Source of the DNA: Deltaproteobacteria bacterium
GTDB lineage: Bacteria; Desulfobacterota; Desulfobaccia; Desulfobaccales; 0-14-0-80-60-11
NCBI GenBank assembly: GCA_021813445.1
Contig: JAKAKP010000051.1
Coordinates: 1-32,046, forward strand
Direction: 5' to 3'
DNA: 32,046 nucleotides
Below are positions 1 to 21,164 of this stretch, in pieces (position 1 is the stretch's first letter; every line of letters starts with the position of its first letter). The position numbers and the translations under genes were made by a program. A model generated the notes under the pieces. That model had not been told where the DNA came from and ran no database searches. It saw nothing but the letters and a program-made list of their open reading frames with translations.

Positions 1-3000
1 CGCGAGGCCAAGATTACCCCGCCCGCAGGCGCACCGGTGGCCTTTGAGGTGCGCAACTCCAAGCAGGAAGTAGTCTTCACCACGGACGCCAAGCTCTCGG
101 CTTTCGGCACCGCGGCCGGGGATTTCAAGATAGAGCCTTTCTGGCCCCTGGGGACCTATGCCCTCACCTTCCAATTCGGCGGCAAACCCTCCAAGAAGGA
201 GGAGGCAAAGTCCCAGGACGAAGAATCGGCAGACACAGAGTCTGAGGACGAGGACAGCGGCAAGCCCCTCCGGGGGGAGCGGACCAAGGTGGAGTGCACT
301 TTCCAGGTGCAGGAGTTCAAACCGCCCCGGCACTTTGCCGAAGTCTCCTTCCAGCGCTTCACCCGGGCCGAGAAAGACCAGCCCCAGGGAGCCGCGCCCC
401 GGGAGTACGTGCGCATCATCATCAGCGGCTCCTATTATGCCGGCGGGCCGGTGAAAAACGGCCAGGTCAAGTGGAAGATTCATCAGACCAAAACCAGTTT
501 TCAGGTCCCTGGCCAGGAAAATTTCACCTTCGGCTGCACGGGTGAAGAGAAAGGGGAACTGCTGGAAGGCGGCCAGGGGGTCCTGGATCAAAAAGGCCGG
601 GTGGAAATAGAGTTCCCCCTGGATCGCCAGGTCCTCACCGGGCAGCAAGGTCTGCTGGTAGTGGCCACGGTTGTGGATTTTGACGGCCGGCCCGCCACCG
701 CCACTAAGACCCTGCAGGTGGAGCCCGACTATCTGGTGGGCATCAGCCTCCATCCGGACCGGACCAAGGCCAACCAGCTCCAGATCCTGCGGGTTCACCT
801 GGCCCGGCCGGACGGCAAGCTCGTTAAACAGGGCAAAATCCAGGTGGAGATCATGGAGCAGCGCTGGGGCTACGTAGCCAAGCGCAACGACCAAGGCGAC
901 GTCTTCTGGCAGGACCAGGAGGTCTGGCGCCGCAACCGCACCGCGGAACTGAACCTGGAAAATGGCCTGGCTACTTACCGGTTCGAGTTTGCCCACGGGG
1001 GCCGCTACCAGGTGGCCTTCGCCTACCAGGATGACAAGGGGCGCCGGTTTATTTCCTCCACCGCCTACGAGGTCTCGGGCAACGTCTTCTGGGACACCGA
1101 GCCCCAGAAGGGCCGGCCCTTCCCCGCCCTGGTCCTGGGCTCGGACCAGAAGGCCTACAAGCCGGGGCAGACGGCCCGCCTCACCATCAGCCCGCCCCGA
1201 AACGTGGCCTATTACCTGGTGACGGTGGAGCAAAACGGCGGCCCGCACCACCAGGTGCTGCCCGGCAAACAGGAGCTCCAGTCCCTGGAGCTGCCCATCA
1301 AAAAGCAATTTGCCCCCAACGTCAATGTCTCGGTGTTGGGCCTGACCCCCCGGGGGAATTTCCCGGTATTGCCCGGCCGCTATGACACCGAGGCCCCGGG
1401 ATTTGTCTGGGGCAATCTCAATCTGCCGGTGCGCCTGGAAGTGGACCCCTTGGTGGTGAAGATCAGCCCGGGGAAAAAGGACCTCAGAGCCGCCCCCGGC
1501 GCCAAGGTGGACCTGGATTTCCTGGTGCAGGCCCAGGACGGCAAGGGGGTGGAAGCGGAGCTGGCGGTGGCCGTGGTGGATGAGGCGGTCCTGGCCCTCA
1601 CCGCGTTCAAGACCCCGACCCTGGAACAACTGGTCCGCTTTGACCTGCCCCTGGCGGTCTATACCGGGGACCTGCGCACCCTGCTGGTGCACCAGACCCC
1701 CTTCTACCTGGCCCGGAGCGAGCCCCTCACCGGGGGCGACGGCATGAGCGAGACGGCCCTGTCCCAATTGCGCAAACGCTTCGAACCCGTGGCTTATTTC
1801 AACCCGTCACTGCACACCGATGCCGCGGGCAAGGCCGCAGTCTCCTTCACCCTGCCGGACAACATGACCACCTACCGCGTCTACGTGGTGGCCCTGGATA
1901 AGGGCAGCCGCTTCGCCAGTCCCGAGCGGCCCCTGGTGGCCACCAAGGACTTTTATATCGAGCCCGGCATGCCCGGCTTCTTTACCCAGGGAGACCGCTT
2001 CCAGTTCCAAGTGGCGGCCTTCAATAACAGCGCCAAGCCCGGCCCGGTGAACTTCACCGCCATCGGCGATGTGGGGCTGCCGCTGAAGGCCGTGGACCCC
2101 ACGGCCAATCTGCCGGCCAATGACAGCATCAAGCTGCGGGTGGCCGGGGAGGCCGCCAAGGCCGGACCTGCAACTGTCAGCTTCACCGGGAAATTCCAGA
2201 AGTGGACGGACGCGGTGGAACTGCCGGTGAAGGTCAACTCCGGCTATGTGCGGCAGACCACCGTGACTCTGGGGACTTTCGCCGGGGGCGGCACGCTCAA
2301 AGCCCCCCTCCCCTCCTATCTGACCCATACCCGCGGCCAGGAGGTGAATCCCCAGGAGGTCAGAGCCCTGCTGACTTTGGCGGGGTCGCCCTTCTTCAAG
2401 ATGTCCCGGGCCATCCAGTACCTGCTGCACTATCCCTACGGCTGCGTGGAGCAGACCAGCTCCGGGGTGTTGGCCCTGGCCAGCCTGCGGGGTCTGGTTA
2501 AGGACGGCCTGGTCTCCGGGGTGTCCCTGGAGGACGTGGACAAGTATCTGTCCCGGGGGGTCTCCCGCCTCCTGAACATGCAGGTCGGCGGCGGCGGCTT
2601 TTCCTACTGGCCGGGCCAGCCGGAAGCGCACCCCTGGGGCAGCGTCTACGCCATTTCCGCTCTCAAGGAGGCCCAAATCCAGGGTCTGGAAGTATCGGAG
2701 AAGGCCCTGAGCGATGCAGTCAATTATTTGCGGAACGTCCTCTACAAAGAGCGGCTCTCCCCCTCCTTTGAGGGTTTCACCATTTATCTGCTGGCCCTCA
2801 ACAAGAACCTGGACAGGAGCGCTTATAACAAGGTGGCGGGCGACTACCAGCGTTTCCCCCGGGAAGCCAAGCTACTGACGCTCCTGGCCGCACATGAGGC
2901 GAAGTTCAGATCCACCAAGGACCTGGCGGCGATGTTGAAGCCGCTGCTGGAAGGCAAGCCGGAAGCGGATTATGCCCAGGACGAATTCCTGGCCCGCTAC

Positions 3001-3840
3001 CGGGCCCCGGCCCTGGCGCTCATGGCCGGGGACGCCATCATGCCGGAGAGCCCTTTGACCGGGCAAACCGCGGCGGCCCTGTTGGGCGGTCTGGATCGGC
3101 AAGGCATCTGGACCTCTACCAGCGACACGGGTTGGGCGCTGCTGGCCCTGGGCCAGCACTTCAAAAGGGCCAAGTTCGGCGGCGCCCCCGGGAAGATCAA
3201 AGTGAGCCAGCCCGGCGGCTCCACCTATGAACTGACCCTGGACCCGGCGCGCCCACAGACGGTGACCCTGGACGCGGCCGCGCTGCTGAAAAATCCGGCA
3301 ACCCGGCTCAGCGGCGAGAAAGGCCGCACCTGGCTCTACCAACTGGAACTCACCTACCCGCGCCTGGACCTGGCCCCCACCGGCGCGTCCCAGGGCTTCA
3401 AGGTGACCCGGACCATCGCCAACACCGACGGCTCCCAGGAGATCAAGGTGGGCGATATCGTCAAGGTGACGGTGCAACTGGAGCCCACGGCCCGGAGCAC
3501 CCGCTACGTGGTGATCGACGATCCCCTGCCCGCAGGCCTGGTGGCGGTGAACCCGGTGTTCAAGACGGAGGAGGCGACGCCCGATGCCGAGGACCGGTTC
3601 GACTACTTCTCCCCGGAGGGCCTGATGCGCTTCCGGCCCAACCACCTGGAGATGCGGGAGGACCGGGTCCTGGCCTTCCGGGATTGGGTCTACCACGGCC
3701 CCCAGGTGTTCGAATACTACGCCCGGGCGGTGTGCGAAGGTACCTTTGTCCACCCCGCCACCAAGGTGTCGGCCATGTACGCGCCGTTGGTGTTCGGCTG
3801 CACGCCTAAGGGCGAAATTACTATCAAGGGCCGTCCTTGA
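1..3840 (+). CDS. Bacterial alpha-2-macroglobulin family protein (5' end outside window)
   Basis: The reading frame is open from base 1, so this is the C-terminal part (1279 codons) of a larger protein; the GTG at 37 is only an internal codon. Bacterial alpha-2-macroglobulins are periplasmic, membrane-anchored proteinase traps. Visible here are beta-rich macroglobulin domains, an A2M-domain stretch around LPDNMTTYRVYVVALD, and the thioester motif YGCVEQ with Cys at codon 803 counted from base 37. An alpha-helical thioester domain follows (to about codon 1090), then a C-terminal receptor-binding-like beta domain. An acidic, low-complexity insert lies near codons 50-75. The usual partner gene pbpC follows downstream, though here with an insertion between them. 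The thioester Cys indicates the trapping type rather than the thioester-less type. Family assignment is firm; the protease target is unknown. Confidence 0.93.
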   Translation, partial: REAKITPPAGAPVAFEVRNSKQEVVFTTDAKLSAFGTAAGDFKIEPFWPLGTYALTFQFGGKPSKKEEAKSQDEESADTESEDEDSGKPLRGERTKVECTFQVQEFKPPRHFAEVSFQRFTRAEKDQPQGAAPREYVRIIISGSYYAGGPVKNGQVKWKIHQTKTSFQVPGQENFTFGCTGEEKGELLEGGQGVLDQKGRVEIEFPLDRQVLTGQQGLLVVATVVDFDGRPATATKTLQVEPDYLVGISLHPDRTKANQLQILRVHLARPDGKLVKQGKIQVEIMEQRWGYVAKRNDQGDVFWQDQEVWRRNRTAELNLENGLATYRFEFAHGGRYQVAFAYQDDKGRRFISSTAYEVSGNVFWDTEPQKGRPFPALVLGSDQKAYKPGQTARLTISPPRNVAYYLVTVEQNGGPHHQVLPGKQELQSLELPIKKQFAPNVNVSVLGLTPRGNFPVLPGRYDTEAPGFVWGNLNLPVRLEVDPLVVKISPGKKDLRAAPGAKVDLDFLVQAQDGKGVEAELAVAVVDEAVLALTAFKTPTLEQLVRFDLPLAVYTGDLRTLLVHQTPFYLARSEPLTGGDGMSETALSQLRKRFEPVAYFNPSLHTDAAGKAAVSFTLPDNMTTYRVYVVALDKGSRFASPERPLVATKDFYIEPGMPGFFTQGDRFQFQVAAFNNSAKPGPVNFTAIGDVGLPLKAVDPTANLPANDSIKLRVAGEAAKAGPATVSFTGKFQKWTDAVELPVKVNSGYVRQTTVTLGTFAGGGTLKAPLPSYLTHTRGQEVNPQEVRALLTLAGSPFFKMSRAIQYLLHYPYGCVEQTSSGVLALASLRGLVKDGLVSGVSLEDVDKYLSRGVSRLLNMQVGGGGFSYWPGQPEAHPWGSVYAISALKEAQIQGLEVSEKALSDAVNYLRNVLYKERLSPSFEGFTIYLLALNKNLDRSAYNKVAGDYQRFPREAKLLTLLAAHEAKFRSTKDLAAMLKPLLEGKPEADYAQDEFLARYRAPALALMAGDAIMPESPLTGQTAAALLGGLDRQGIWTSTSDTGWALLALGQHFKRAKFGGAPGKIKVSQPGGSTYELTLDPARPQTVTLDAAALLKNPATRLSGEKGRTWLYQLELTYPRLDLAPTGASQGFKVTRTIANTDGSQEIKVGDIVKVTVQLEPTARSTRYVVIDDPLPAGLVAVNPVFKTEEATPDAEDRFDYFSPEGLMRFRPNHLEMREDRVLAFRDWVYHGPQVFEYYARAVCEGTFVHPATKVSAMYAPLVFGCTPKGEITIKGRP

Positions 3841-3918
3841 TGATGGAGGCTAAAGCTGTCGAGCTGCCCTTAAAAGTTCAAGGTTCAATGTCCAAAGTTA
3901 AGGCACCTTGTTCGGTAA

Positions 3919-4042
3919 GTCTTACGCGCCCAAGGATGGTGCGTAAGACACACCCTACACCGGCAAGTTTTCTTAGTGGTGGCCCAGGCTTTCCAGCCTG
4001 GGCGCCCGGCGCGCCCGAAGAGGTGCGTGAAACACACCCTAC
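3919..4042. repeat. Intergenic palindromes and direct repeat after the A2M gene
   Basis: The 414-base gap 3841-4254 holds no credible gene. A 9-bp perfect inverted repeat sits at 3919-3927/3941-3949. A 9-bp stem with a TTCC loop sits at 3982-3990/3995-4003. A 21-base direct repeat occurs at 3938-3958 and 4022-4042, differing at two positions and ending in ACACACCCTAC in both. The 3982-4003 module recurs at 25398-25419 with compensated stem changes. None is followed by a T-run, so these look like interspersed repeats rather than terminators. Confidence 0.75.
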
Positions 4043-4095
4043 GGGGTCAATCATTATCCACATGCTCATATCTCATGGATGTGCTTAATATTTTT

Positions 4096-4209
4096 CCCTC
4101 TCCCCTCGGGGGAGAGGGTTAGGGTGAGGGGGGTGACTTGGACAAACAGCGGTAATCCGTCCAAAGACGCCACCCCCACCCCGGCCCTCCCCCCTCAAGG
4201 GGGAGGGAG
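4096..4209. repeat. Paired REP/BIME-like palindromic repeat
   Basis: A 10-bp perfect stem CCCTCTCCCC/GGGGAGAGGG (4096-4105/4109-4118) is followed by TTAGGGTGAGGGGGGT. After about 50 bases a mirrored unit follows, CACCCCCACCCC plus a CCCTCCCC/GGGGAGGG stem near 4185-4208. The two units are arranged tail to tail, as in bacterial interspersed mosaic elements. A diverged relative lies at about 30727-30797. No function is visible beyond possible transcript folding downstream of the A2M gene. Confidence 0.7.
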
Positions 4210-4254
4210 AAAAGACCGCGTTGCTAATGCAAGATATTTACTGGACACAACACT

Positions 4255-4794
4255 ATGTCGGACCAACAAATAGGCAAGAGAGGGGAGGAGCGGATTTATT
4301 TAGCTCATTTTACCGAAGCTTATCGACTTGCTACTGGAAAAAACCTTCTCGTCGGAGATGGTCCCGACTCTCCAGATTTTATTGGTGTTAGGGAAACAGG
4401 GGAGGAAATTGCGGTCGAATTAACCTGTATCATGAGAAACCCTGCATCAGCCCAGGCTGCTGAAATCCTTTGGCGACAGGAATATATGGATGCTGATGAA
4501 GCGCTGGAATTGATTTACCATACTATTGAGATAAAAGAAGAAAAACGAGTTAAAGATTATGGTATCTGGGCAGATAAAACAATATTGGTTATTAATCTAG
4601 TAGAATGTCCATTGTCATCATTACTCCCTGACTTAAACACCTTGCAAGGCGATTTTAATTTTCATGGGTTTGTTAAAGTATGGCTCGCTGATCATTCAGA
4701 TGACGCTTATAGTGATATTGAGTTATCTGGACTCTCACCCTTAGAAATTTGGGGATATTATCCGCGACCACCGGGACAAAAACCATATGGTTAG
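4255..4794 (+). CDS. Hypothetical protein, AT-rich, possible PD-(D/E)XK-like fold
   Basis: This is a 179-residue protein I do not recognise. Base and codon use is clearly more AT-rich than in the flanking GC-rich genes, with many A/T-ending codons, which suggests horizontal acquisition. There is no signal peptide or membrane segment, so it should be cytoplasmic. An N-terminal helix with E11/E12 is followed by SPDFIG (D41) and then a strand ending IAVELT (E55). That spacing recalls PD-(D/E)XK nuclease-like folds, but the usual Lys of the ExK motif is replaced by Thr57, so this is only a hint. Later hydrophobic strands (ILVINL, FVKVWLAD) fit an alpha/beta fold. The ATG has no convincing Shine-Dalgarno. 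The stop overlaps the pbpC start by 8 nt, so the two may be translationally coupled. It breaks up the normally adjacent A2M/pbpC pair. Confidence 0.7.
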   Translation: MSDQQIGKRGEERIYLAHFTEAYRLATGKNLLVGDGPDSPDFIGVRETGEEIAVELTCIMRNPASAQAAEILWRQEYMDADEALELIYHTIEIKEEKRVKDYGIWADKTILVINLVECPLSSLLPDLNTLQGDFNFHGFVKVWLADHSDDAYSDIELSGLSPLEIWGYYPRPPGQKPYG

Positions 4795-7150
4795 ATACAT
4801 TACTAAACGTTCTCTGTTAGTGATGACTCTCGGAGCGATTTTGGCCGCGGGGGTGATAGTGCTGCTGCGCCTCTCCCCGGTGGATCTGGCGGCGTTATCC
4901 CCCAGCTCTGGCCCCCTGGTGCTGGACCGCCAGGACCGCGTCCTCTTTCTGGGCCTGGCGCCTGACGGCAGCCGGGGGGTGAAGCTGCCGCCCGGGCCCC
5001 TGCCGCCTTTGGTGACCGCGGCCTTCGTGGCCGCGGAAGACCAGCGGTTCTGGCAGCACCCCGGGGTCGACCCGGTGGCCGTGGTGCGGGCCGCGCTCAG
5101 CAATCTGCGGGCCGGCAGGGTGGTGTCCGGCGCCTCCACCATCACCCAGCAACTGGCCCGCCTCACCTATCCCGGACCCCGCACCTGGTCCCGCAAGGTG
5201 GTGGAGATGTGCCGGAGCCTGCGCCTCGAGGCGGCCCTGAAAAAAGAGGAAATTCTGCGGCTCTATCTGGACCGGGTGCCCCAGGGGAACAACCTGACCG
5301 GGGTGGAGACCGCGGCCCTGGCTTATTTCGGCCGGAGCGCAGCCAACCTCTCGCCGTCCGAAGCCGCAATGTTGGCCTCCCTGGCCAAGGCCCCGGGCCG
5401 GCTCAATCCTTTGGGACGCCACAAAAAGAGGCTGCTGGCCCGCCGGGATTGGGTCCTGAGCCGCATGGCCGCCTTGGGTTTCCTGAGCGAGCAGGAAATG
5501 AAAACCGCCCAGGGAGAACCTATACGCTTGTCCGGGGTGGCGGGCCACCGCCCCGGCTTTCCCTTCCTGGCCCCCCACTTCGTGAACCTGGTGCTGGCCG
5601 CCGGGGCCAAGGGGAAAGAAGTGGGCACGGTCCGCACCACCTTAAACCTCACCCTGCAGCGGCAGGTGGAGCAGATTCTGCTGTCCCAGGCCGGGCGGCT
5701 CCGGGCCGGCGGCGCCCGCCAGGCCGCGGCGGTGATCCTGGACAACCGGGGGCCGGAGGTCCTGGCCCTGGCGGGGTCGCTGCGCTATGGCCCCAAAGAC
5801 GGCGGCTACAATAACGGGGCCGCGGCCTGGCGTTCCCCGGGTTCGGCCTTGAAGCCGTTCCTCTATGCCCTGGCCCTGGACCGGGGCTTCACCTCCGCCT
5901 CCATCATCGAGGATACGGAGCGGCGCTACCGCATCCCCGGGGGCGAGTTCTTTCCGGCCAACTTCGACCGGGTGGCCAACGGCCCCGTCTCCTTCCGGGA
6001 GGCCCTGGGCAACTCCCTGAACCTGGCGGCGGTGCGCCTCCTCAACCTGGTGGGGCAGGAGCGCTATTATGAAACCCTGAACCGCCTGCACCTCATCAAC
6101 CGCCAGGACCGGGGGCCGGAATATTACGGCCTGGGCCTGGTGGTAGGCAACCCGGAAGTGAGCCTCCTGCAAATGGCCACGGCTTACACCTGTCTGGCCA
6201 ACGGCGGCATTTACCGGCCCTTGCGCCTGCGCCTGGACCAACCTTCAGGAGAGGAAACTGCGGTCTTCTCCGAGCAGGCCGCGTTCATCGTCAGCGATAT
6301 TCTGGCCGATCCCCTGGCCCGGTCCCGGGCCTTCGGCGGCGCGCCGTCCATGAACCCGCCCTTTCACCTGTCCATAAAGACCGGGACCAGCACCCGCTAC
6401 CGGGATTGCTGGTCCGCGGCCTACTGCCCTCGGTACACCATAGCCGTCTGGGTGGGAAACTTTGACGGCCGCCCCACCGCCCAGCAAAGCGGGGCCACGG
6501 TCGCGGCCCCCATCATGGCGGACCTGGCCGCGGTCCTGTTTGCGGCCGCGCCGCCCGAGCCCTGCCTCCGGCCGGAAGGCGTCAGCCGCGTCCCGGTCTG
6601 CGCCTTTTCCGGGATGCGCCCCGGCCCCGGCTGCCTTTTCCAGGTGGAGGAATTTTTTGTAAGCGGGACGGAACCTGAGCGGGAATGTACTTACCACCGG
6701 CCCCATTCGCCCTGGCACCGGCTGGATACCGCCTATGCCGGCTGGCTCCAGGAGCGTTACGAAAAAGGGACGGAGGGCAGATTCCGCCTGGCGGGGTTCG
6801 ACCCGAACCTGAGCCGGGTGTTCCGGCCGGAAAGCTCGAGCCCCCGCCCCACCTCCACTCGGACCCCTCCGGTTATACCTGATCCCCGGGGAGGGAGCCG
6901 GATCAATATCGTTTACCCGCTGGCGGGCGACAGCTTCCTGCTGGCCCCCCGGGACGAGGGGGTGGAAGTGACCTTAAAGGCCCTGTGCCGCAACCGCATG
7001 CGCCAGGTGAGCTGGTTTGTGGACGGCCGGGAGGTGGGGACCGTGGGCCCGCCCTACCGCCTGACGGTGACCCTGGCCCGGGGCCGGCACCACCTCACCG
7101 CTCTGGGCCCCGACGGCCTGGGCGACTCCGTGGAGGTGTCGGTGCAATAA
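4787..7150 (+). CDS. pbpC: Penicillin-binding protein 1C (bifunctional glycosyltransferase/transpeptidase)
   Basis: A 787-residue class A penicillin-binding protein that would polymerise and may crosslink peptidoglycan on the periplasmic face of the inner membrane. One N-terminal membrane anchor (about residues 9-27) is followed by a GT51 glycosyltransferase domain with the catalytic motif AAEDQRFWQHPGVD (Glu84) and SGASTITQQL. The transpeptidase domain has SALK (Ser353, Lys356), SLN (Ser410-Asn412) and KTGT (Lys531). A C-terminal beta domain (about 695-787) matches the BiPBP_C domain typical of PBP1C. Length matches the family. It normally sits directly after the A2M gene, and the two are thought to act together in envelope repair and defence. 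The first dozen codons are AT-rich like the preceding inserted gene, and composition changes to GC-rich near 4835. Confidence 0.95.
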   Translation: MVRYITKRSLLVMTLGAILAAGVIVLLRLSPVDLAALSPSSGPLVLDRQDRVLFLGLAPDGSRGVKLPPGPLPPLVTAAFVAAEDQRFWQHPGVDPVAVVRAALSNLRAGRVVSGASTITQQLARLTYPGPRTWSRKVVEMCRSLRLEAALKKEEILRLYLDRVPQGNNLTGVETAALAYFGRSAANLSPSEAAMLASLAKAPGRLNPLGRHKKRLLARRDWVLSRMAALGFLSEQEMKTAQGEPIRLSGVAGHRPGFPFLAPHFVNLVLAAGAKGKEVGTVRTTLNLTLQRQVEQILLSQAGRLRAGGARQAAAVILDNRGPEVLALAGSLRYGPKDGGYNNGAAAWRSPGSALKPFLYALALDRGFTSASIIEDTERRYRIPGGEFFPANFDRVANGPVSFREALGNSLNLAAVRLLNLVGQERYYETLNRLHLINRQDRGPEYYGLGLVVGNPEVSLLQMATAYTCLANGGIYRPLRLRLDQPSGEETAVFSEQAAFIVSDILADPLARSRAFGGAPSMNPPFHLSIKTGTSTRYRDCWSAAYCPRYTIAVWVGNFDGRPTAQQSGATVAAPIMADLAAVLFAAAPPEPCLRPEGVSRVPVCAFSGMRPGPGCLFQVEEFFVSGTEPERECTYHRPHSPWHRLDTAYAGWLQERYEKGTEGRFRLAGFDPNLSRVFRPESSSPRPTSTRTPPVIPDPRGGSRINIVYPLAGDSFLLAPRDEGVEVTLKALCRNRMRQVSWFVDGREVGTVGPPYRLTVTLARGRHHLTALGPDGLGDSVEVSVQ

Positions 7151-11795: not shown

Positions 11796-12302
11796 TCAGT
11801 CGCCCAAAACGGTCCGGGAAATCTCCCCAAACAGGTCGCTCAGCCGCAGCATCCCCGCCACTTTGCCGTCGTACATCACCGGCAGCAGGCCCACGTTTTC
11901 CTGGATCATCAGGTAGAGGGCCTTGGCGAACGGATCTTTGGCGTCTACGGTGGCTTTAATGGGGCTCATCGCTTCGCTCACCGGCCTCTGGGATTGATCT
12001 TTCATTTTGGGCCCCAAATTGTCGCCGGTCAGAACAGTCAAACTGGGGTCCATTTTGATGAGACCGGTCTCCTGGAGAAACTTGGGCTCCAGGCCGATAA
12101 TGATATCCCGTAGAGTCAAGATCCCCATAAGCTGGTACTTTTCATCAAAGACCAGGACCGCCCGGGGCTCGTAACTGCCGCCAAACTTGGCGACCACTTC
12201 CCGGATGATGGCCATGGCCTCCCGCAGACTGAACCAATAAGGAATATGGGGGTAATCCTCCAAAGGGATCATCAAATCCTTGGCGGTTTTCTGGTAACTC
12301 AT
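11796..12302 (-). CDS. Stand-alone tandem CBS-domain protein (copy 1)
   Basis: A 168-residue soluble protein built almost entirely of two CBS motifs (about residues 5-75 and 100-168). The LMGILTLRDII and KVAGMLRLSDLF segments mark the ends of each motif. Such Bateman modules bind adenosyl ligands and regulate enzymes or transporters. It closely resembles the divergently transcribed protein at 12566-13072; both begin with the same KDLMIPLEDYPHIPYWFSLR signature. The ATG at 12302 follows GAGGA with good spacing and gives the same length as the paralogue, so I prefer it to the TTG at 12317. A sigma70-like promoter lies upstream, and the dikinase-like gene follows on the same strand, suggesting that this protein controls or is controlled with it. 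The ligand is unknown. Confidence 0.9.
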   Translation of the reverse strand: MSYQKTAKDLMIPLEDYPHIPYWFSLREAMAIIREVVAKFGGSYEPRAVLVFDEKYQLMGILTLRDIIIGLEPKFLQETGLIKMDPSLTVLTGDNLGPKMKDQSQRPVSEAMSPIKATVDAKDPFAKALYLMIQENVGLLPVMYDGKVAGMLRLSDLFGEISRTVLGD

Positions 12303-12354
12303 GGTGTATCCTCGCAAAATCCTTAGCTTCTAGGCATGACCCGAAGGTGATTCT

Positions 12355-12565: not shown

Positions 12566-13072
12566 ATGCCAAACGACAAGAAGGTGAAAGATTTGATGAT
12601 CCCCTTGGAGGATTACCCCCACATCCCCTACTGGTTCTCTCTGCGCCAGGCCATGGCTATTGTCCGGGAGGCGGCCATCAAGTTTGAGGGCTCCTTCGAG
12701 CCCCGGGCGGTCCTGGTCTTTGACGAAAAATACCAGCTCATGGGCATCCTGACCCTGCGGGATATTATCAAAGGCCTGGAACCCCGGTTCCTGCACGAGA
12801 CCGCCCTGGTCAAGGCCGACCCCAGTCTCGCGGTCATGATTGGCGACCTCTTCGGGCCAGGGTTAAAGGAAGCTTCGCAGAAGCCGGTGAGCGAGGTTAT
12901 GAGTCCGATTAAAGTCACCGTCCAGGGCAATGACCCCATCGCCAAGGCCATCTTTCTGATGATCAAGGAAGACGTGGGCCTGATGCCAGTGATCCAGGAT
13001 AGCAAAGTGGCCGGGATGATTCGTCTAAGCGATCTCTTCAAGGAGATCTCCGATCTGGTGCTGGGCGACTAG
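12566..13072 (+). CDS. Stand-alone tandem CBS-domain protein (copy 2)
   Basis: A 168-residue paralogue of the divergent CBS protein at 11796-12302, again two CBS motifs with no other domain or membrane segment. Most positions agree by eye, including the N-terminal MIPLEDYP block and the LMGILTLRDII segment; differences concentrate in the linker near residues 85-105. The ATG has GGGAGG about six bases upstream. It is 36 bp before the SLC13 carrier gene on the same strand, so it is likely the first gene of that transport operon and may sense adenine-nucleotide or ionic state for the carrier. This functional link is inference from position. The 263-bp region between the two CBS genes must hold both promoters. 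Confidence 0.9.
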   Translation: MPNDKKVKDLMIPLEDYPHIPYWFSLRQAMAIVREAAIKFEGSFEPRAVLVFDEKYQLMGILTLRDIIKGLEPRFLHETALVKADPSLAVMIGDLFGPGLKEASQKPVSEVMSPIKVTVQGNDPIAKAIFLMIKEDVGLMPVIQDSKVAGMIRLSDLFKEISDLVLGD

Positions 13073-14722: not shown

Positions 14723-16456
14723 ATGCGCACGCGGTTAACTACCATACTATGGATATTGACAGCCCTGTTGATCTCCGGCTTCCTGGCTGGGCCCGCGGCC
14801 GCCGCCGCCCCTGCGGCGGGGGACCGCCTGGCCATCTCCGGGCTGGTGACCAACCCCATGGGCAAGGGCCTCAAGGAAGCGGAGATCGAGGTGCTGGTGA
14901 ATGGGCAGCATCTCAAACCAGTGGGTAAAGAGGCCGAGATCGTCACCGGCAAGCCCGGGGGCTATGTGGCGGATTTTATCCTGCCGCCGGGGACCCTGCC
15001 GGGGGCCAAAGTGGAGGTCAAGGCCGCCAAGCCCTCCTGGAAGCCGGTGCCGCCCACGACCGTGAAGGTGGTGGAAGCCGGCAAGGACGCCCAGGGCAAC
15101 CGGCTGTTCCAGGCCTACCAGAAACTCACCATGGAACGCAAAATCACCGCGGGGTTCTGGATCGCCACCCTCGTCTTGCTGCTGGTTTACCTGGTCATTT
15201 CTTTCGAATGGATGCACCGCACTCTGGTCTCTTTCCTGGGCGCGGCCCTCATCATCTTCATCACCTACACCCTGGGGCACTGGGATAAATCCTTCTACAT
15301 CATCTCCTTCGACGACGCCATGGGGGCCATCGACCTCAATGTCATCTTTCTCCTCATGGGCATGATGCTCTTTGTGGGAGTGATGAAAAAGACGGGCATG
15401 TTCCAGTTTCTGGCCTATAAGGCCTATGCTTTGGCCCGGGGCAACGTCTTTATCCTGTCCTTGGTCCTCCAGATCATCACCGCGGTGGTCTCGGCCTTCC
15501 TGGACAACGTCACCACCATGCTTCTGGTGCTGCCGGTGACCATCGAGATCGCGGTCACCCTGAAGATCAACCCCCTGGTCTTGCTGATCCCCGAGGCCTT
15601 TGCCTCCAACGTCGGCGGCACCGCCACCCTGATCGGCGATCCGCCCAACATCCTTATCGGCTCCTATGCCGCGCTCACCTTCGGCCAGTTTGTGCAGAAC
15701 CTATCCCTGATCTGTGCGGTGTCTTTGGTGACATCCTCATTTTTCTTCCTCTGGTGGCACAAAAAGGCCTACCTGGGGGCGGAAGTGAAGGACGTGCCCC
15801 GGACCATCGAGTATTTGAAGGAGCAGTATCAGATCACCAACAAGAAGTTGATGAACCTGGGCCTGTTTTTGCTGGCCTTTGCCATCCTCTTTTTTATCCT
15901 GGGGGGAGTTTTACACTTGCCGGTGGCGATCCCGGCGCTGGTGGGCTCCTTGCTGCTGTTAGCCATCTCCGGGGAAGACATCGTGGAGATGCTGGAGAAG
16001 GAAGTGGAATGGCCCACCCTGGTCTTTTTCATCGGCCTGTTCATGGTCATTGCCGGCGCGGAGGAGACCGGGCTGATCCAGGTGATCGCCAACTTCGTCA
16101 AGGACGTCTCCAAGGGCAACTTGACCGCGGCCATCGTCATCATCCTTTGGGTGAGCGCCATTGCCTCGGCCTTTATTGACAATATTCCCTTCACCGCCAC
16201 CATGCTGCCCATCATCGCCTTCCTGAACCAGACCATCCCCGGCGCCGAGTCCGGCGTGCTCTGGTGGTCCCTGTCCCTGGGCGCGTGTCTGGGGGGCAAC
16301 GGCACCATGATCGGGGCCTCGGCCAACGTGGTCACCGTGGGCCTGGCGGAAAAGGCGGGCTACCACATCTCCTTCGTGGACTACATGAAGGCCTGCTGGT
16401 GGCCCATGATGATTACCGTCAGCATCTGTATGGTTTACCTGTTGATTGCTTATTGA
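14723..16456 (+). CDS. ArsB/NhaD-type (IT superfamily) permease with periplasmic N-terminal domain, copy 1
   Basis: A 577-residue membrane protein. A signal peptide (residues 1-28, ending AAAA) precedes an exported beta-type domain (about 32-125) resembling carboxypeptidase-regulatory/Ig-like modules. About eleven membrane segments follow. Paired family motifs are DNVTTMLLVLPV and GGTATLIGDPPNILIG in the first half, and DNIPFTATMLPI and GGNGTMIGASANVV in the second, as in the ArsB/NhaD group that exchanges anions or Na+ for H+. The gene follows the SLC13 gene closely and precedes the KdpD-like kinase gene by 149 bp. A near-duplicate lies inverted at 19425-21164. The substrate is unknown; arsenite is unlikely to be deducible, as no ars genes are nearby. 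Confidence 0.9.
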   Translation: MRTRLTTILWILTALLISGFLAGPAAAAAPAAGDRLAISGLVTNPMGKGLKEAEIEVLVNGQHLKPVGKEAEIVTGKPGGYVADFILPPGTLPGAKVEVKAAKPSWKPVPPTTVKVVEAGKDAQGNRLFQAYQKLTMERKITAGFWIATLVLLLVYLVISFEWMHRTLVSFLGAALIIFITYTLGHWDKSFYIISFDDAMGAIDLNVIFLLMGMMLFVGVMKKTGMFQFLAYKAYALARGNVFILSLVLQIITAVVSAFLDNVTTMLLVLPVTIEIAVTLKINPLVLLIPEAFASNVGGTATLIGDPPNILIGSYAALTFGQFVQNLSLICAVSLVTSSFFFLWWHKKAYLGAEVKDVPRTIEYLKEQYQITNKKLMNLGLFLLAFAILFFILGGVLHLPVAIPALVGSLLLLAISGEDIVEMLEKEVEWPTLVFFIGLFMVIAGAEETGLIQVIANFVKDVSKGNLTAAIVIILWVSAIASAFIDNIPFTATMLPIIAFLNQTIPGAESGVLWWSLSLGACLGGNGTMIGASANVVTVGLAEKAGYHISFVDYMKACWWPMMITVSICMVYLLIAY

Positions 16457-19424: not shown

Positions 19425-21164
19425 TCAATAAGCAATCAGCAGATAGACCATGCTGATGGTGACGGTAATCATCATGGGCCACCAGCAGGCCTTCATGTAG
19501 GACACGAAGGAGATGTGGCAGCCCGCCTTTTCCGCCAGGCCCACGGTGACCACGTTGGCCGAAGCCCCGATCATGGTGCCGTTGCCCCCCAGACAGGCGC
19601 CCAGGGCCAGGGACCACCAGAGCACCCCGGACTCCGCCCCGGGGATGGTCTGGTTCAGGAAGGCGATGATGGGCAGCATGGTGGCGGTGAAAGGAATGTT
19701 GTCGATAAAGGCCGAGGCGATGGCGCTCACCCAGAGAACGATGACGATGGCCGCGGTGAGGTTGCCCCGGGAGACGTCTTTCACCCAGTTGGCAATTACC
19801 TGGATCAGGCCGGTTTCCTCCGCGCCGGCAATGACCATGAACAGGGCGATGAAGAAGACCAGGGTGGGCCACTCCACCTCGTTCTCCAGCATCTCCACGA
19901 TGTCTTCGCCGGAGACGGCCAGCAGCACCAGGGAGCCGAAGAGGGCCGCGACCGAGACCTGCATGTGCAGGAAACCGTGCAGGGCGAAGAGTAAAATGGT
20001 GCAGCCCAGGAGCATGAGGCTCTGGATCATCAGCTTTTTATCGGTGATCTGGTATTCCTCTTTCAAATATCCGATGGTGCGGGCCACATCCTTCACTTCG
20101 GCCTTGAGGTACTCTCTCTTGTTCCACCAGAGCAGAAACAAGGAAGAGACTGCCAGGGATACCATAGAGACCAGGGCCAGGTTCTGCACGAACTGCCCGA
20201 AGGTGAGCCCGGCGTAGGAGCCGATGAGGATGTTGGGCGGGTCGCCGATCAGGGTGGCGGTGCCGCCGACGTTGGAGGCAAAGGTTTCGGGGATCAGCAA
20301 GACCAGGGGGTTGATCTTCAGGGTGACCGCGATCTCGATGGTCACCGGCAGCACCAGGAGCATGGTGGTGACATTGTCCAGGAAGGCCGAGACCACCGCG
20401 GTGACGATCTGGAGCACCAGAGAGAGGACGAAGACGTTGCCCCGGGCCAAAGCGTAGGCCTTATAAGCCAGAAACTGGAACATGCCCGTCTTTTTCATCA
20501 CCCCCACGAAGAGCATCATGCCCATGAGCAGGAAGACGACGTTGAGGTCGATGGCCGCCATGGCGTCGTCAAAGGAGATGATGTAGAAGGACTTGTCCCA
20601 GTGCCCCAGGGTGTAGGTGATAAAGATGATGAGGGCCGCACCCAGGAAAGAGACCAGGGTGCGGTGCATCAACTCCAGGGAGATGACCACATAGACCAGG
20701 AACAAGATAATACTGGCGATCCAGAAGCCCGCGGTGACGGTCCGCTCCATGGTGAGGTTCTGCACCGCCTGAAAGAGGCGGTTGCCTTGGGTGTCCTTCC
20801 CGGCGTCCAGCACTTTCACCTGGATGGGCAGCACCGGCTTCCAAGAGGGCTTGGTGGCCTTGACCTCCACCTTGGCCGCGGGCAGGGTCCCGGGGGGCAG
20901 GATGAAGTCCGCCACGTAGTCCCCGGGTTTGCCGGTGACGATTTCCGCCTCCTGGCCCTGGGGCTTGACCTGCCGGCCGTTGACCAGCACTTCTATTTCC
21001 GCTTCCTTGACGCCCTTACCCATGGGGTTGGTCACCAGACCGGAGATAGCCAGATGATCACCGGCCGGGGCCGGGGGGCCGGCGGCTACTGCCGGGCCGG
21101 CCAGGAAACCGGCGATCAGCAGGCAAACGCAGATATCTAGAAAGGAAGTTAACCTTTTTCCCAT
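19425..21164 (-). CDS. ArsB/NhaD-type permease with periplasmic N-terminal domain, copy 2
   Basis: A 579-residue paralogue of the protein at 14723-16456, with the same signal peptide, exported beta domain (about 32-127) and about eleven membrane segments. The motif blocks DNVTTMLLVLPV, GDPPNILIGSYAGLTFG, DNIPFTATMLPI and GGNGTMIGASANVV are the same apart from single changes. Long stretches of DNA are identical or nearly so, for example around 20290-20400 against 15480-15590. The two copies differ most in the periplasmic domain and in the loop and helices near residues 340-420. It is transcribed towards the two-component genes and ends in an intrinsic terminator. The start has AAAGGGA upstream and an 8-bp inverted repeat in its leader. 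The pair indicates duplication with continuing conversion or recent origin. Confidence 0.9.
   Translation of the reverse strand: MGKRLTSFLDICVCLLIAGFLAGPAVAAGPPAPAGDHLAISGLVTNPMGKGVKEAEIEVLVNGRQVKPQGQEAEIVTGKPGDYVADFILPPGTLPAAKVEVKATKPSWKPVLPIQVKVLDAGKDTQGNRLFQAVQNLTMERTVTAGFWIASIILFLVYVVISLELMHRTLVSFLGAALIIFITYTLGHWDKSFYIISFDDAMAAIDLNVVFLLMGMMLFVGVMKKTGMFQFLAYKAYALARGNVFVLSLVLQIVTAVVSAFLDNVTTMLLVLPVTIEIAVTLKINPLVLLIPETFASNVGGTATLIGDPPNILIGSYAGLTFGQFVQNLALVSMVSLAVSSLFLLWWNKREYLKAEVKDVARTIGYLKEEYQITDKKLMIQSLMLLGCTILLFALHGFLHMQVSVAALFGSLVLLAVSGEDIVEMLENEVEWPTLVFFIALFMVIAGAEETGLIQVIANWVKDVSRGNLTAAIVIVLWVSAIASAFIDNIPFTATMLPIIAFLNQTIPGAESGVLWWSLALGACLGGNGTMIGASANVVTVGLAEKAGCHISFVSYMKACWWPMMITVTISMVYLLIAY

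Follow-up and report, generated by a model that had tools for sequence, protein, structure and literature searches.

A lone AT-rich gene acquired between A2M and pbpC in a Deltaproteobacteria bacterium likely encodes a PD-(D/E)XK-type nuclease fold

An AT-rich ORF, here named X179, lies between the genes encoding a bacterial alpha-2-macroglobulin (A2M) and a PBP1C-type protein (pbpC) in the window, by which we mean the whole 32,046-nucleotide stretch of DNA that was analyzed. This arrangement raises the questions of how X179 came to occupy the junction and what its product may do. The features at the locus are as follows.

37 to 3840, + strand: A2M (alpha-2-macroglobulin) gene, the upstream neighbor by Pfam, probably cut by the contig start.
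3932 to 4244, + strand: intergenic repeats and palindromes, ancestral, 82% identical to the gene-less locus L005 and recurring in part in plasmid records.
4245 to 4838, + strand: tract without a clear DNA match to L005 (blastn and shuffle test), comprising about 10 nt, X179, and the first 17 pbpC codons.
4255 to 4794, + strand: X179 ORF, 179 aa with an ATG start, a lone AT-rich gene for a putative nuclease-like protein of PD-(D/E)XK fold.
4787 to 7150, + strand: pbpC (PBP1C), the downstream neighbor by Pfam, its ATG lying inside the end of X179.

The identity of the upstream gene follows from Pfam A2M, A2M_BRD, and bMG10 matches, and that of pbpC from Transgly, Transpeptidase, and BiPBP_C matches. 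X179 has one possible start, its frame being only nine codons longer with no start codon among them, and its 3' end overlaps pbpC by 8 nt. The original prediction, made from the sequence alone, had described an AT-rich gene between A2M and pbpC with this overlap, and both its presence and its deviating composition were borne out: GC content is 41.3% in X179 vs. 64.5% and 68.3% in the two neighbors, and GC3 is 31.1% vs. 84.5% in A2M and 84.5% in pbpC. X179 is a real gene, since two homologues align with it at 35 to 37% identity over nearly full length, as expected of a protein-coding sequence and not of a chance ORF. By eye, no Shine-Dalgarno sequence was evident upstream of the ATG of either X179 or pbpC, and neither a sigma-70-like promoter nor a terminator was found within positions 3700 to 4900. 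As X179 has no visible promoter, it would be transcribed together with the A2M-pbpC operon, and translation of pbpC would now be coupled to that of X179 through the 8-nt overlap; with neither a Shine-Dalgarno sequence nor a promoter visible upstream, expression of X179 is unproven. Elsewhere in the window, divergent genes at 11796-12317 and 12566-13072 have nearly identical N-terminal sequences, likely reflecting a recent duplication, and genes at 14723-16456 and 19425-21164, on opposite strands and of similar length, also have alike N-terminal sequences.

Given the foreign composition of X179, we compared the junction across related genomes. Fifteen pbpC loci from the genus and family, drawn from 31 genomes, were compared, leaving out L019-L028 as paralogues or distant; one of the fifteen is the window's own and carries X179, while another (L010) begins within pbpC and its junction is unreadable. 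X179 was absent from all 13 readable junctions of relatives, and A2M adjoined pbpC in each. These include the closest relative (locus L005, genome G006), whose PbpC is 88% identical and whose site is empty of X179. The blastn match between the window and L005 stops at position 4244, 10 nt before the X179 ATG, and restarts at 4839 within pbpC; between the matching blocks, L005 carries a different intergenic stretch of about 140 nt, followed by its own pbpC start. A recent gain, as originally proposed, thus agrees with the comparison of the same locus in related genomes, where the site is empty in L005 and X179 is not clade-wide.

To place X179 in a wider context, 395 genomes of the phylum were searched with the protein, which returned three carriers: the window's genome, G016 from the same family, and G040 from another family of the phylum. 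A profile built from the three members recovered the same three carriers in these genomes; in searches by class it found two carriers among 29 genomes of the window's class and one among the four genomes of the class to which G040 belongs. Each carrier genome has one copy of the family, and a scan of genome contigs found the G016 copy as the only match. Among 148 genomes of another class, the profile gave no clear member and one weak partial match, and no relative of X179 was found in phages, plasmids, or viral contigs. The known members of the family are therefore three, and the family is small, without a family name, and patchy across one phylum.

Both homologues resemble X179 in composition and setting. 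The G016 homologue (29.7% GC, flanks 63.8%) lies between an adenine deaminase gene and a gene of the ornithine cyclodeaminase family, in the same direction. When genomes of the family were searched for the cyclodeaminase, ten others had both neighbors on one contig and none of them carried an X179 homologue at this site. The G040 homologue (30.0% GC, flanks 55.3%) follows a gene for an LPG_synthase_TM-type membrane protein in the same direction and has a hairpin downstream; one of three related loci was informative (L055), and in it the flanking genes adjoin each other with no insert. Hence each of the three members is AT-rich, stands alone, and occupies a site that is unrelated to the other two and vacant in relatives. 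All three point in the direction of the upstream gene, an agreement that with three cases could be chance (one in eight).

The space between the adenine deaminase and cyclodeaminase genes holds other cargo in 3 of the 10 relatives. In G006 it contains a nucleotidyltransferase and HepT-like pair (L039:751-1405), in L040 a YdjM-like gene encoded on the opposite strand (L040:674-1282), and the matching place in L036 has, by eye, a stretch similar to the latter; accordingly, this space accepts varied small cargo. In two more of the ten, G011 and G004, a second copy of a cyclodeaminase-type gene follows.

Absence from relatives, foreign composition, and homologues standing alone at other sites empty in relatives identify X179 as horizontally acquired single-gene cargo. 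Vertical descent does not fit, because the PbpC proteins of the window's genome and G016 are 64% identical, whereas the X179 homologues are 35% (G016) and 37% (G040) identical to X179. An old operon gene, not foreign at all, that was lost from every relative could account for the family being found twice within one taxonomic family; against such losses stand the 0 of 13 relatives with X179 at the site, its sharply different composition, and the location of the second copy in the same family at a different locus, and we consider this history the least credible of those discussed here.

The original prediction further held that the insertion reached into pbpC, and this part stood only partially. 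The first 51 nt of pbpC are indeed AT-rich (GC 41% vs. 70.5% in the next stretch) and cannot be aligned to the closest relative: between the window and L005 the alignment is at chance level, with 596 of 1,000 shuffles reaching its score, while the pbpC bodies are 88.6% identical. By comparison, the same 51 nt do align between L005 and L007 (0 of 1,000 shuffles), whose bodies are 80% identical. The sign is not unique to the window, however. In L006, which has no insertion, the first 51 nt of pbpC are likewise unalignable to the window, L005, and L007-L009, so an odd pbpC start is a non-specific sign. Turnover at the signal-anchor end of pbpC seems to be rapid, and the sequence is consistent with an exchange reaching into pbpC.

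A cluster of palindromes upstream of X179 had been regarded as part of the insertion event, a view that the comparison contradicts. The palindromes and repeats themselves were confirmed at about 3938-4215; because the gene-less L005 has the cluster too, it is older than X179. Part of it is also dispersed among unrelated replicons: the repeat at 4091-4215 of the window, which contains GAGGGTTAGGGTGAGGGG, occurs at 338 places in 62 plasmid records, mainly from Azospirillum, with about 73 to 80% identity in the best-covered rows and mostly no annotated feature beneath. Judged from these matches, the repeat is widely dispersed and common to distant bacteria.

What, then, does X179 encode? The original prediction had seen nuclease-like features in the protein, and several agreeing lines, each weak alone, favor that reading. 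In the three-member alignment, invariant residues include Glu12-Arg13, Pro40-Asp41-Phe42, Glu55-Leu56, Arg61, Lys94, and Lys97, and Asp41 and Glu55 are thus conserved in both homologues. The codons of interest are as follows.

4288 to 4290, + strand: Glu12, invariant and located in the first helix, a candidate for the motif I acid (numbering after PMC1913061).
4372 to 4377, + strand: Pro40-Asp41, invariant PD, candidate motif II.
4417 to 4425, + strand: Glu55-Leu56-Thr57, E-x-T replacing E-x-K, candidate motif III with Glu55 invariant.
4534 to 4545, + strand: Lys94 to Lys97, both lysines invariant, in a predicted helix (residues 80-101), candidate migrated catalytic lysine.

The motif II Asp and motif III Glu of the PD-(D/E)XK superfamily are therefore present and invariant in the three members, while the lysine two residues past the Glu is absent, position 57 being Thr, Thr, and Val. 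The motif III lysine is known to vary among PD-(D/E)XK families. With this lysine replaced, catalysis by X179 is not assured and we term the protein a putative PD-(D/E)XK nuclease rather than a proven member. Hjc is given as a typical case, with E9, D33, E46, and K48, in PMC1913061. The same paper describes DUF1626, in which the motif III lysine is often threonine, a conserved Lys/Arg patch lies in the following helix, and the predicted order is helix, three strands, helix, strand, helix, strand (PMC1913061). X179 resembles DUF1626 in that Thr occupies the motif III position and positively charged residues occur in a helix further on, but the likeness is one of motif only and X179 has no Pfam match to any DUF.

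Structure prediction pointed in the same direction. AlphaFold gave an unusable model from the single X179 sequence (pLDDT 31) and a low-confidence one from two sequences (mean pLDDT 50.4, pTM 0.46), the latter with a helix (3-27), strands (32-35, 42-45, 51-58), helices (66-74, 80-101), a strand (109-114), a helix (124-127), and a strand (140-146). This succession, seen at pLDDT 50, matches that of the PD-(D/E)XK core; Asp41 immediately precedes strand two, and Glu55 falls within strand three. Foldseek with the two-sequence model returned 154 matches at E <= 10, none significant (best E 0.31); its first nine rows included YaeQ, Hjc, VRR-Nuc, a CdiA toxin domain, NucS, and a viral L protein with endonuclease, which we take to be restriction-endonuclease-like proteins by fold class, and lower rows were mixed. 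VIA-align 2 likewise gave no significant match (best Z 5.3). Its first row, 3n2q, is presumably not a nuclease. By the classification we assume, restriction-endonuclease-like proteins fill about 47 of the 50 rows shown; Z values of this size alone may mean just a common arrangement. Structures of 1y0k and DUF1626 were missing among the rows shown, which carries no weight against them. Against a viral structure library the best E was 0.087, with several nucleases among many unnamed entries and none significant, and the three-member profile matched no solved structure at E <= 10. As a weak control, since that model is near random, the single-sequence model gave eight Foldseek matches, with presumably no PD-(D/E)XK nuclease among them.

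X179 thus resembles the PD-(D/E)XK superfamily in the order of core elements in the low-confidence model, a PD followed by E 14 residues on, and an acid in the first helix, and differs from it in having Thr/Val for lysine and no significant sequence or structure match. The agreement among motif order, model, and structure lists makes a PD-(D/E)XK nuclease fold likely, though unproven, and the remote homology and structure search proposed for the 179-residue protein turned up no confident non-nuclease fold and no significant match. Taken jointly, the gain of X179 and its nuclease-type fold form what we judge a reasonably probable account.

Family libraries contributed little. Pfam, PHROGs, NCBIfam, and PADLOC yielded nothing usable for X179, the best Pfam match (E 0.09) being to an unrelated family, and the three-member alignment gave weak PHROGs matches of single members only. 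No anti-phage family of PADLOC-DB 2.0.0 matched X179 at E <= 10. The Pfam match at E 0.09, to ubiquitin, was rejected as it falls in a helical stretch, as was a Parb-CE match of one homologue (Pfam, E 0.011), also in a helical stretch; the true Parb-CE protein of this genome is, by eye, without the motifs. Literature searches returned nothing for 'ParB CE domain' and nothing on X179.

Two more distant candidates were recorded, L058 (G432), with PPDF...GFAEIT, and L084 (G144), a protein of 179 aa with APDI...FEIT. Their E values of 0.0067 and 0.0053 per genome come from searches of 148 and 394 genomes, in which one to two such matches are expected by chance, so both are leads only. For the C-terminal half of L058, the score did not exceed what shuffled sequences give (989 of 3,587 scoring shuffles reached it, of 5,000 made), and nothing further was found in plasmids searched with L058 and L084 or in phages and viral contigs searched with L058 alone. 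L058 weakly matches DUF1780 (E 0.017) and 1y0k (E 0.019), giving X179 a weak transitive likeness to DUF1780 (PF08682, structure 1y0k); X179 itself has no DUF1780 match, and the step from X179 to L058 is at chance level in the genomes searched. The DUF1780 (PF08682) profile matched neither X179 nor anything in G000, and across the phylum it gave weak partial matches in 18 of 395 genomes, none above the curated cut-off. If confirmed, L058 and L084 would tie X179 to putative endonucleases. Separately, six places in G134 (L059, L077-L081) weakly match the same 49 DUF1780 profile positions and are perhaps a repeated element; three lie no more than 170 nt from a contig start.

If X179 adopts a nuclease fold of PD-(D/E)XK type, Glu12, Asp41, and Glu55 would bind a divalent metal, and Lys94 or Lys97 in the later helix may take over the role of the lysine replaced by Thr57. 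Its most likely role, and the least certain step, would be that of a stand-alone nuclease against foreign nucleic acid. Lone, patchy, foreign nuclease-like genes often serve defense, and for this reason we favor a single-gene defense nuclease as the role of X179, a plausible assignment, though taken by itself less likely than not. No defense neighbor or partner was found, the neighbors annotated by Pfam being A2M, pbpC, and an M50 peptidase. A defense- or toxin-like gene with its partner at another genomic location, or one left over from a pair that has come apart, could be imagined, as the space at the second site in G006 holds a nucleotidyltransferase and HepT-like pair and such spaces take similar small cargo; each of the three members has unrelated genes on either side and no accompanying partner, which makes this version quite improbable. 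Thr or Val at the lysine position could also mean a nuclease-fold protein without catalysis that binds DNA or RNA, such as a regulator. The invariance of Glu12, Asp41, and Glu55 in three strongly diverged sequences suggests instead a kept active site, and DUF1626 offers a precedent for Thr with a lysine elsewhere (PMC1913061); we regard loss of catalysis as unlikely.

A homing-type, self-spreading endonuclease gene, whose product cleaves intergenic sites that do not yet contain the gene so that repair copies it in, would explain how single genes came to be inserted at several unrelated places with no transposase. Consistent with such spread, each of the 3 members is a single gene that follows the direction of the upstream gene and occupies a different intergenic site, vacant in relatives; the host match ends 10 nt before the X179 ATG with the pbpC start replaced, as co-conversion could give; and I-Ssp6803I is row 3 of VIA-align (Z 4.5). 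That Z value is not above those of other superfamily members, though, and by eye the three sites share no target or terminal motif. Each genome has a single copy, the pbpC start of L006 turned over without an insertion, and the copies are just 35 to 37% identical, so recent spread is not supported. Homing is accordingly very unlikely in our estimate, and we would hold out even less hope for the broader proposal that X179 founds a group of PD-(D/E)x(T) endonuclease genes that are free-standing and spread by themselves, each a single ORF in intergenic sites of unrelated operons that relies on host transcription and brings little flanking DNA.

Under the favored reading of acquired single-gene cargo, X179 stands for a small unnamed family that joins the putative PD-(D/E)XK nucleases. 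In its three known cases a single foreign gene separates two genes that otherwise form a conserved pair, and the site is vacant in relatives, which makes the entry of single genes without mobility functions into operons a testable question. If active, X179 would be a candidate single-gene defense nuclease.
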